NCBI GenBank assembly: GCA_024697225.1
Contig: JAILGA010000104.1
Coordinates: 1 to 64,000, forward strand
DNA: 64,000 nt
Direction of reading: 5' to 3'
Origin: Lachnospiraceae bacterium
GTDB taxonomy: Bacteria; Bacillota; Clostridia; Lachnospirales; Lachnospiraceae
Below the pieces are notes generated by a model that saw nothing but the letters and a program-made list of their open reading frames with translations, searched no databases and was not told the DNA's origin. How positions within the stretch are numbered: position 1 is the stretch's first letter; each line of letters begins with the position of its first letter. The position numbers and the translations under genes were made by a program. This document shows positions 6,311 to 52,626 of this stretch, in pieces.

Positions 6311-6850
6311 TTACCCTTTTTTGAATATATCGGTCAAAAGCGTTTTCAGCTCTTTACCCGCGTAATTGGTAAGGACGCTTTCGCTGTCAAGGAAAGCGCA
6401 GGCGATTCGGGCCTGAGAGTGTCCCCTGAAGCCGAGAAGATATCCCTTATCATAACTGAACTTCTTCACGGCTTTTTTCACCTCATCCTCAGGCGTCTTC
6501 TTACAAATGATCACAAAGGTGAGGTAAGAACTCATGTGATCCTTTTCCGGATACTTCTCGCCCCTTCGCACGAGTTCCGGCTCCACATGCCCATCGATCA
6601 TGGTCCTGATCCCGGCGAGATGATCCGCCGTCAGACTTTCAGCCGTATCAAAGAAGACATGCTCGTAGGCCCGAATCGCCCACAGCTTTGCCTCCTTCTT
6701 CAGCACATATTTCTCACCCAGCGAAAAAAAACTGGCATAGGCCGGATATGTTCTGTCTCCGATCCTGTAATCCGAAGTGATATCGAAGTTGGCCTTATAT
6801 CTCTTAAGCAGTTCGCCAAGGTAATCTTCCGGCGTGAAGTCTGATGCCAT
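6311..6850 (-). CDS. conserved hypothetical protein upstream of cstA
   Basis: A soluble, charged protein of about 179 residues with no signal peptide, membrane segment or motif I can name. Mid-protein it reads SFFSLGEKYVLKKEAKLW and AYEHVFFDTAESL; the C terminus has FLDSESVLTNYAGKELK. The start was set at MASDFTPEDY because GGGAGAAGGAAC lies just upstream; the longer track ORF has no ribosome site. It is 16 bp upstream of cstA on the same strand, so a regulatory or accessory role for CstA is a reasonable inference but unproven. Two copies of a 16-bp sequence (6868-6883 and 6926-6941) lie just upstream. Confidence 0.75.
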   Translation of the reverse strand: MASDFTPEDYLGELLKRYKANFDITSDYRIGDRTYPAYASFFSLGEKYVLKKEAKLWAIRAYEHVFFDTAESLTADHLAGIRTMIDGHVEPELVRRGEKYPEKDHMSSYLTFVIICKKTPEDEVKKAVKKFSYDKGYLLGFRGHSQARIACAFLDSESVLTNYAGKELKTLLTDIFKKG

Positions 6851-50029: not shown

Positions 50030-51232
50030 ATGAAAACCGGTTATAAGATGACGATAAAAGCCGCATATCTGGGCTATGTCGTTCAGGCAATAGTTAATAA
50101 TTTCGTGCCGCTCCTCTTCGTACAGATGCAGTCAGAGTTCGGGATCCCCCTGGGAAAGATCACTCTTCTGATCACCTTCAACTTCGGTATTCAGCTTCTG
50201 ATAGACATGTTCTCGGCGCCGTTCATCGACAGGATCGGCTACAGGGCATCCATGATAATATCGAACGCCTCTGTGATCGCGGGACTCCTTCTTCTGACAG
50301 TTTTGCCGGGAATATTTGTCGATCCATTCTTCGGCATACTGGTCCCGGTGTGCATCTACGCCATCGGGGGCGGTCTGCAGGAGGTGCTGGTAAGTCCAAT
50401 AGTAGAGGCGTGTCCGACCGACAACAAAGAAGCTCAGATGAGCCTTCTGCACTCGGCATACTGCTGGGGACACATGGCAGTCGTCCTTTTCTCGACCCTT
50501 TTCTTCCATTTTTCCGGGATTTCAAACTGGCGATATATGGCCGTACTGTGGTGCATAATCCCCGCTGTTGATCTCATCCTGTTTACCAGGGTACCGATAG
50601 CAGTATTGCAGCCGGACACCGAAGAAGGCGCCGGATTGGGCGCTCTTATGACCCAGGGCGTTTTCTGGCTGATGTTTATCATGATGATCTGCGCAGGCGC
50701 CTCCGAGCAGGCCGTGAGCCAATGGTCATCGGCATTTGCGGAGATCGGTCTGGGCGTATCCAAGACATTGGGCGATCTTTTGGGGCCCATGTTCTTTGCG
50801 CTCTGCATGGCTGTTTCAAGAACAATATACGGACTAAAAGGAGACCGGATCGATCTGGACTTCTTCATGAAGCTATCTACCTGGCTGTGCGTTCTTTCCT
50901 ATCTGGTGATCGTTCTTGTGCAGATTCCGGTCATCGCACTTCTGGGCTGCGGTCTTGCGGGATTTTCCGTCGGGATCTTCTGGCCCGGAACCTTCAGCAC
51001 CGCCTCTGCCAGGATCAAAGGAAGGGGCACGCTCACTTTTGCACTACTTGCCCTTGCAGGTGATCTGGGATGTTCCGGAGGCCCCACTCTCGCCGGTGCC
51101 ATAGCGGGCGCTTCCGATGACAACATGAGAGTCGGGATAGGCATCGCCATGATCTTTCCGGTCATAATGGCACTCTGCCTCGGCGTGAACGCGTATAAAC
51201 GGGACACAGGGACCATACACGGGGATGCGTAG
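50030..51232 (+). CDS. major facilitator superfamily transporter
   Basis: A 400-residue membrane transporter with about twelve helices. The MFS loop-2 motif region is seen as SAPFIDRIGYRASM near residue 65 and the N-terminal half ends in a central cytoplasmic loop near 185-200. The C-terminal half includes GCGLAGFSVGIFWPGTFSTASARI near 305, typical of the sugar-permease-like FucP/BsfT style. The substrate is not known. It starts 12 bp after the HD-GYP stop. A very large hairpin-forming sequence begins about 10 bp after its stop codon. Confidence 0.87.
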   Translation: MKTGYKMTIKAAYLGYVVQAIVNNFVPLLFVQMQSEFGIPLGKITLLITFNFGIQLLIDMFSAPFIDRIGYRASMIISNASVIAGLLLLTVLPGIFVDPFFGILVPVCIYAIGGGLQEVLVSPIVEACPTDNKEAQMSLLHSAYCWGHMAVVLFSTLFFHFSGISNWRYMAVLWCIIPAVDLILFTRVPIAVLQPDTEEGAGLGALMTQGVFWLMFIMMICAGASEQAVSQWSSAFAEIGLGVSKTLGDLLGPMFFALCMAVSRTIYGLKGDRIDLDFFMKLSTWLCVLSYLVIVLVQIPVIALLGCGLAGFSVGIFWPGTFSTASARIKGRGTLTFALLALAGDLGCSGGPTLAGAIAGASDDNMRVGIGIAMIFPVIMALCLGVNAYKRDTGTIHGDA

Positions 51233-51241
51233 ACCTTGGCG

Positions 51242-51408
51242 GCCTGCCTGCGAAATTTTCCGACAGGCAGGATGCAGTGTCCTCCGAGCCGCGAGTCCTT
51301 GTGTGCCACTCAGATGAGACTCCCAAGGAGGCTCGTCTGAGTGACCGGCACACCGGCGAGCGGGCGGAGGATGCAGCATCCTGCCGGTCATACAGTACAT
51401 AAGGCAGG
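51242..51408 (+). other. large composite hairpin with competing arms, candidate structured RNA
   Basis: Bases 51262-51389 can fold into an almost continuous rod. An outer stem (51262-51286 with 51365-51389) pairs 23 of 25 positions including two wobbles. A 4-bp CCGC/GCGG stem, a 7-bp GTGTGCC/GGCACAC stem and an inner 16- to 17-bp stem closing the loop CAA at 51324-51326 follow. The 5' part of the outer stem can instead pair with CCTGCCTG at 51243-51250, and the 3' part CCTGCC (51380-51385) with GGCAGG at 51403-51408, so alternative folds compete. It lies between the MFS stop and the aldo/keto reductase start. No T-run follows. It could be a regulatory leader, a small RNA or a palindromic mobile repeat. 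Confidence 0.75.
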
Positions 51409-51444
51409 TTTCAAGAATTATAAATGTTATAAGGGGGACATGAC

Positions 51445-52626
51445 ATGCAATACCGCACTGATCAAAGGAACAACAACGAACTCTCGGTTCTGGGCTTCGG
51501 CTGTATGCGTTTCACAAAAAAGGGAGGCTCATTCGACCAGGAGAAGGCTTTCCGCGAGCTGGCACGCGCTGTTGAGCTCGGTGTCAACTACTTCGACACC
51601 GCCTATGCATACGCAGGCAGCGAAGTCCTGCTGGGACGCTTTCTGAAGGAGTACGGCTGCCGCGATCGCATCAATATCGCAACCAAGCTTCCCCAGTACC
51701 GAATAAAAAAAGGCGAGGAATTTGATTCCTATTTCAACGAGGAACTGGAGCGTCTGATGACGGATCATGTGGATTACTACCTGCTCCATATGCTGAATGA
51801 TGTGAAGAGTTTTGAGAGACTGTGCTCTCTTGGTCTTAAGGAATGGATCAGGGCAAAGAAGGCCTCGGGGCAGATACGTAACATGGGATTCTCATTCCAC
51901 GGCGGCACACTGGCCTTTAAGGATCTCCTTGATGCCTATGACTGGGATTTCTGTCAGATACAGTTCAATTACATGGACGAACACACCCAGGCGGGTATCG
52001 ACGGTCTGAATTATGCCCATGAAAAAGGCATTCCCGTCATCATCATGGAACCCCTCCGCGGAGGACGTCTCGTTAACGCGCTTCCGAAGGATGCGCTGAT
52101 GGAATTCGAAAATATGAGCATAAAACGCTCCCCTGCGGAATGGGGACTGCGCTGGGTCTGGAACCACCCCCAGGTCAATGTCGTACTGTCGGGCATGAAC
52201 GACATCACACAGGTTGAGGAAAACTGCCGCATAGCTTCCGAGAGTCTTCCCGATTCCCTGAGTGAGGAAGAACTCGCTCTCTACGGCCGCGTTCTCACGG
52301 CCATACTCCACGACATAAAGGTGGGCTGCACCGGCTGCGGCTATTGCCAGCCTTGTCCCAGAAACGTGGACATACCGACCTGCTTCTCAACCCTCAATGC
52401 CAGCTATTCCGACAATTACGCCAACTCCTTCCGTGAGTACTTCATGTGCACAACTCTCAGGAAGGACCGTACCAATGCCGGCCTTTGCATAAAATGCGGA
52501 AAATGCGAGCAGCACTGCCCGCAGAGCATCAAGATAAGGGATATGCTGGATCTGGTCAAACGCAGATTTGAAAACCCGGTCTACAAGATCGCCGCAGCCG
52601 GTTCAAAGCTTATCATGAGATACTGA
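51445..52626 (+). CDS. aldo/keto reductase with C-terminal ferredoxin-like domain
   Basis: An oxidoreductase of 393 residues. Residues 1-280 form the aldo/keto reductase barrel, with FGCMRF near 14, YFDTAYAY near 50 (catalytic Tyr in this segment), TKLPQYRIKKG near 78 and LHMLNDV near 113. The C-terminal part has one four-cysteine motif, CTGCGYCQPCP near 293, and a second, CIKCGKCEQHCP near 350, for [4Fe-4S] clusters. This is the common clostridial Fe-S aldo/keto reductase; its physiological substrate is unknown. The site AAGGGGG precedes the ATG, and a giant hairpin lies in the upstream 200 bp. Its 3' end overlaps the convergent small Cys-rich gene by 24 bp. Confidence 0.93.
   Translation: MQYRTDQRNNNELSVLGFGCMRFTKKGGSFDQEKAFRELARAVELGVNYFDTAYAYAGSEVLLGRFLKEYGCRDRINIATKLPQYRIKKGEEFDSYFNEELERLMTDHVDYYLLHMLNDVKSFERLCSLGLKEWIRAKKASGQIRNMGFSFHGGTLAFKDLLDAYDWDFCQIQFNYMDEHTQAGIDGLNYAHEKGIPVIIMEPLRGGRLVNALPKDALMEFENMSIKRSPAEWGLRWVWNHPQVNVVLSGMNDITQVEENCRIASESLPDSLSEEELALYGRVLTAILHDIKVGCTGCGYCQPCPRNVDIPTCFSTLNASYSDNYANSFREYFMCTTLRKDRTNAGLCIKCGKCEQHCPQSIKIRDMLDLVKRRFENPVYKIAAAGSKLIMRY

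Follow-up and report, generated by a model that had tools for sequence, protein, structure and literature searches.

The window, a 64,000-nt stretch of a Lachnospiraceae draft genome, contains a 212-nt spacer between a gene for an MFS transporter and one for an aldo/keto reductase (AKR), and this spacer holds a long hairpin (Table 1). Folding of the window copy produced a 128-nt rod (51262-51389) with a 3-base apical loop, as the first-pass annotation had described, separated from an outermost stem by 12 unpaired nucleotides on each side. The minimum free energy of the enclosing 229 nt (51222-51450) was -115.6 kcal/mol, well beyond chance: 200 dinucleotide shuffles of the same segment gave -77.0 +/- 4.5 kcal/mol (z -8.55), and 0 of the 200 reached the native value. 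The outermost left strand is either a part of the element or belongs to a hairpin that pre-existed at the site.

Table 1. Features of the MFS-AKR spacer and its flanking genes (window positions)
Feature	Position	Strand	Remarks
Upstream gene, MFS transporter	50030..51232	+	weak NCBIfam match only
Outermost stem, left strand	51235..51249	+	partner 51402-51415, probability 1.0 over six pairs checked
Left distal rod arm	51262..51280	+	partner 51371-51389; copy-specific sequence, self-complementarity kept
CAGGCAGG, alternative partner of 51243-51250	51264..51271	+	unpopulated in ensemble
Conserved 90-nt core (CCTCCGAGCC...GGCGGAGG)	51281..51370	+	five full own-genome copies, ends 17/17 and 15/15 identical; R2 match 78.1 bits
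Apical motif in core	within 51281..51370	+	GCCAC...GAGAC...GGCTC...GAGTG...GGC
Right distal rod arm	51371..51389	+	partner 51262-51280
Outermost stem, right strand	51402..51415	+	partner 51235-51249
Downstream gene, AKR, C-terminal Fe-S cysteines	51445..52626	+	

The same annotation read the arms as mutually exclusive and the whole as a regulatory leader with competing helices. A complementary segment does exist, as CCTGCCTG (51243-51250) finds its full complement at 51264-51271, but real competition between the helices does not: forcing the alternative pairing yielded -105.7 kcal/mol, a penalty of 9.9 kcal/mol, and in the ensemble the outer stem had a pair probability of 1.0 compared with <=0.0001 for the alternative helix. 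Two negative statements in the annotation held up. A search at the hairpin found no T-run terminator, and with the hairpin as query no Rfam family was matched at the gathering threshold, in line with the absence of a known riboswitch or RNA class. Relaxed Rfam thresholds returned MIR898 and WT1-AS_4, which were rejected as eukaryotic families with chance-level scores.

Sequence and pattern searches of the source genome (G000, a 2.8-Mb draft in 165 contigs), a check that had been suggested from the outset, recovered exactly five full copies at unrelated intergenic sites, together with two separate 3'-end fragments. The five full copies share identical ends, CCTCCGAGCCGCGAGTC (17/17) and GCGAGCGGGCGGAGG (15/15), and core identity is 84-88% among the four that can be aligned. 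Beyond the core, the arms vary in sequence from copy to copy and retain self-complementarity. Besides the MFS/AKR site of the window, copies lie between murC and glgC, between two FlgK-like genes, upstream of an acyl-CoA dehydratase activase gene, and between ysxC and lon (gene names other than AKR were read from translations). In the ysxC-lon spacer (L197, contig C105), the arms enclosing the copy, AAAATTCAGCGCCGCGGCTATATA and TATATAGCCGCGGCGCTGAATTTTT, look like a terminator hairpin that the insertion has divided. Between the FlgK-like genes (L003:1400-1600, contig C7), part of the element with its flank is repeated in tandem at a distance of 85 bp from the full copy, and at L004:253-350 (contig C31) a direct repeat of ~50 nt with a small palindrome, GGATGTACATCC, precedes the copy. 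Close relatives of the AKR gene in sister species have different upstream genes and no copy of the element, and because other genes lie upstream of the orthologue there, an empty-site comparison at the window locus found no matching upstream region. One relative (L058, G042, contig C1) has, some 20-230 nt ahead of its AKR orthologue, a different, almost perfect inverted repeat with arms of ~75-80 nt (AAACTTCGCACTTGCC...GGCAAGTGCGAAGTTT), which the covariance model places outside the element family.

A first covariance model built from four copies recovered diverged members in congeners, and a wider model of 21 sequences detected the family in 42 of 79 congeneric genomes of Butyrivibrio (in the GTDB sense), at copy numbers from 0 to ~30 (31 in G068 and 21 in G074). 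Five further genera of the same family were positive among 173 genera sampled in the order, a lower bound given that filters were stricter and few candidates were scored outside the genus. Among named records, the short-tip form occurs in Lachnospiraceae MAGs recovered from the reticulum of goat and buffalo. Phage and plasmid records contained no matches to the element, and viral contigs gave either none or matches unsupported by the covariance model; pattern-scan matches outside the Lachnospiraceae scored at most 16.3 bits in the model and were dismissed as chance. Members share the pattern GCCAC..GAGAC..tip..GGCTC..GAGTGnnnGGC, with a bulge and a lower internal loop, and have an interchangeable tip that is either short or a 37-nt stem tip (GTGAGCGC..GCGCGAAAC). 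They make up a family of small palindromic DNA elements, dispersed through rumen Butyrivibrio-type bacteria, that appears not to have been described before, and the literature covered, mostly that outside subscription journals, describes no such element for Butyrivibrio or Lachnospiraceae.

The same rod recurs in 102 aligned copies, with 97.2% of cells paired and 277 double-sided changes compared with 63 in shuffles. The alignment was fitted to the model, which biases the 97.2% upward, yet the shuffles and controls with a slid structure (30-38% paired) still leave a large margin. Covariation of this strength, along with conserved internal loops, implies that the structure is recognized by something, as such upkeep would be unnecessary for a purely decaying repeat; this point weighs against the mobile-element reading given below. 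The first-pass annotation had looked to covariation as a sign of RNA; the covariation is there, but two observations keep it from implying a regulatory RNA by itself: copies are used in either orientation, and G-U pairs hardly occur. In the core, with the innermost pair left out, G-U accounts for 0.8% of standard pairs, compared with 5.9% in tRNAs. This difference is a hint of DNA rather than RNA pairing, and only a hint because the control comprised three tRNAs and single-copy folds of the element give 5%.

Most copies, including that of the window, are intergenic. In three rumen relatives (G068, G074, and G072), we examined 56 copies and found 26 of them in frame within open reading frames with Pfam support; counting the one in the source genome, 27 of the 102 copies are in frame overall. 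The hosts, identified by Pfam or NCBIfam, include TrmD, CarB, YgfK-like, DUF6020, YfhO/GH20, MBL, MATE, and DegV/Hpt proteins. The copy in carB adds ~48 residues relative to E. coli CarB, a solved homologue, and that in trmD places ~80 residues (query 186-266) where the S. aureus-type 3ky7 has 8. The number of copies in a YgfK-like protein differs between three species (three, two, and one), and a sister species, G072, lacks the C-terminal copy that G068 has. The in-frame copy of the source genome is a diverged one that lies antisense in a DUF3810 gene, where it occupies a spacer that most homologues keep short; 9 of 11 aligned homologues have no comparable insert, and the other two (G065 and one more) have shorter, unrelated spacers. 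In-frame copies occur in both orientations, and those in sense nearly always use one reading frame: where more than one frame of a sense copy is open, the same one is used in 15 cases out of 15, encoding about HGAETTGSAECPAKPERSG, with some of the 15 orthologous and the number of independent events correspondingly lower.

As in-gene copies were chosen by requiring an open reading frame, the remaining copies were checked separately. None of the 10 same-strand gene pairs flanking remaining intergenic copies was a split gene, the neighbors belonging to different families or having no shared family, so frame-breaking insertions seem to be purged or rare. In G074, TrmD and RimM form one open frame with the element between them (L137:2722-4212), in a trmD-rimM order that is unusual, which suggests that the element can join neighboring genes. 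At ~6351-6432 of a G068 locus (L111:2843-7501), one copy within the coding frame is flanked symmetrically by repeated left-half and right-half units, an arrangement suggestive of elements inserting at the apex of older ones.

Presence and absence could be compared upstream of a GyrB/ParE-type gene, where G016 and G058 have a copy and G089, G076, and G044 have none. G089 and G016 are 100% identical over the 300 aa compared. At this site the tip is short in G016 and long in G058, and the distal arms contain compensated changes. The empty species have neither arm, indicating that the arms there belong to the element and not to a hairpin already in place. Insertion into the loop of an existing hairpin or terminator, an idea prompted by the ysxC-lon copy, was set aside as a general rule on the strength of this one clean empty site. 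Members in three species (L161 in G062, L156 in G057, and L154 in G014) adjoin an apparent carA start (MKAxLILEDGTVF), with two copies in opposite orientation in G062 and G014; they may represent an old shared insertion or a retained copy that is possibly of use.

We consider it highly probable that the window hairpin belongs to a non-autonomous mobile element, palindromic and dispersed, whose hosts are Lachnospiraceae and chiefly Butyrivibrio in the GTDB sense, and that it represents one of the intergenic copies. The element is dispersed, conserved in structure, resident in frame within functional-looking protein genes, and present or absent at the same site in different species. A mobile palindromic repeat had been the alternative in the first-pass annotation and is now favored by dispersed copies with conserved ends, by near-identical species that differ in presence, and by insertions into genes in both orientations. 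The dispersal expected of such a palindrome was found, but its target-site duplication was not: at the sites compared, we identified no duplication, exact insertion ends, mobilizing enzyme, or parent transposon. Measured against MITEs, the element has conserved complementary ends, and a search for exact ends, a duplication, and a related full-length transposon found none. Sites common to several species (carA, and the site shared by G016 and G058) also fit old, retained, and possibly useful copies, and the absence in G089 could reflect precise loss instead of a recent gain in its sister.

Other readings explain parts of these data. If the hairpin were a cis-regulatory leader in the AKR mRNA that switches between mutually exclusive helices, its place in the spacer, 30-200 nt ahead of the AKR start, and the existence of alternative complementary segments would fit, but the two folds are not of comparable stability, the alternative being 9.9 kcal/mol worse and unpopulated. 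Copies at unrelated genes in either orientation, sister-species AKR orthologues that have no element, and the lack of a terminator or of an Rfam match at the gathering threshold leave the hairpin untied to the AKR gene and make this leader highly improbable. If the dispersed copies were instead genes of one structured RNA family that acts in trans or binds protein and is functional as RNA, then the strong covariation, the conserved internal loops and apical motif, and the position ahead of carA that several species share would all be accounted for. In-frame gene copies in both orientations argue against such a family, as do the scarcity of G-U pairs in the core (0.8%, against 5.9% in the small control of three tRNAs) and a copy number that runs from 0 to ~30 among congeners, and we think it unlikely.

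Hairpin elements recognized by structure are the hallmark of the REP/RAYT system, and 60 of the 79 genomes in the genus contain Y1 genes, which would suit a repeat of the REP/REPIN type mobilized by a Y1 (IS200/RAYT) transposase. However, Y1_Tnp (PF01797) had no match in the draft genomes of G068 and G074, the richest hosts, or in those of G000, G070, G081, and G065, many Y1-rich congeners, such as G041 and G055, are without the element, and the unit is far longer than REP; we give this reading very little credence. An attC cassette array, considered from the 0.6- to 1.2-kb spacing of copies in G068 and G074, was rejected because copies sit inside or between ordinary housekeeping genes.

The mobile element that we favor would spread as a hairpin recognized by its structure, either as DNA or as RNA later copied into DNA, with a mobilizing factor that recognizes the hairpin probably supplied in trans. 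Its persistence in genes may be due to a stem that stays open in the frames required and whose translation product (in sense, about HGAETTGSAECPAKPERSG) would be tolerated as an insert, probably one exposed on the protein. A more specific proposal, which we put forward with considerable doubt, is a structure-recognized hairpin element that no known type of mobilizer moves. Selection would have made its sense frame and tip harmless in translation, so that essential genes are colonized as readily as spacers, and its arms would stay complementary through a process acting on DNA, such as the use of one arm as template for the other. Such upkeep would account for both the unique, near-perfect distal arms found at each site and the almost complete lack of G-U pairs. 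The window copy itself most likely has no dedicated regulatory job, and we found no evidence of function for it. If transcribed, it would form a very stable hairpin in the MFS-AKR spacer and could have an incidental effect on read-through or mRNA decay.

Palindromes in frame within genes have so far been treated as a peculiarity mainly of Rickettsiales. With many congeneric hosts carrying 0 to ~30 copies, clean presence/absence pairs, and culturable species, the phenomenon would become testable in free-living bacteria, including how the element moves, how its pairing is kept up, and whether the inserted peptide matters. The data also call for caution in annotation, as folding alone is no ground for labeling spacer hairpins of this kind in Butyrivibrio as regulatory RNAs.

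Placed by kind and not by sequence homology, the element appears nearest to the Rickettsia palindromic elements (RPE), followed by ERIC/RU. It resembles REP/REPIN repeats with RAYT in being a structure-recognized hairpin scattered through intergenic space, and differs in its greater length, its presence inside genes, and richest hosts that have no Y1 transposase. In mitochondria of Nematomorpha, long inverted repeats lie inside translated genes, with both arms encoding conserved host protein (PMC6649704), whereas the palindrome here is an added insert and belongs to a dispersed repeat family. ERIC and RU-1, RU-2, and RU-3 of enterobacteria are small imperfect palindromes, mostly intergenic, some of them intragenic and translated in fusion (PMC2759123); their hosts are different, and their in-gene copies amount to a handful, compared with 26 of 56 in three genomes here. 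RPE, as far as the accounts consulted describe them, are palindromes of ~100-150 nt that lie in frame in open reading frames of unrelated genes, encode a conserved peptide, and also occur between genes (Ogata et al. 2000, via PMC2635572; PMC10969869). The 128-nt rod matches them in size and in forming a stable hairpin, its many copies are likewise dispersed at unrelated loci, and in-frame insertion with a conserved peptide occurs in relatives and in one copy of the source genome, the window copy being intergenic. A review regards similar events in other prokaryotes as conceivable (PMC10969869). In contrast to RPE, whose hosts are obligate intracellular alphaproteobacteria, the present element inhabits Gram-positive Butyrivibrio/Lachnospiraceae of the rumen, and for it a covarying internal-loop pattern and an interchangeable tip are demonstrated here.
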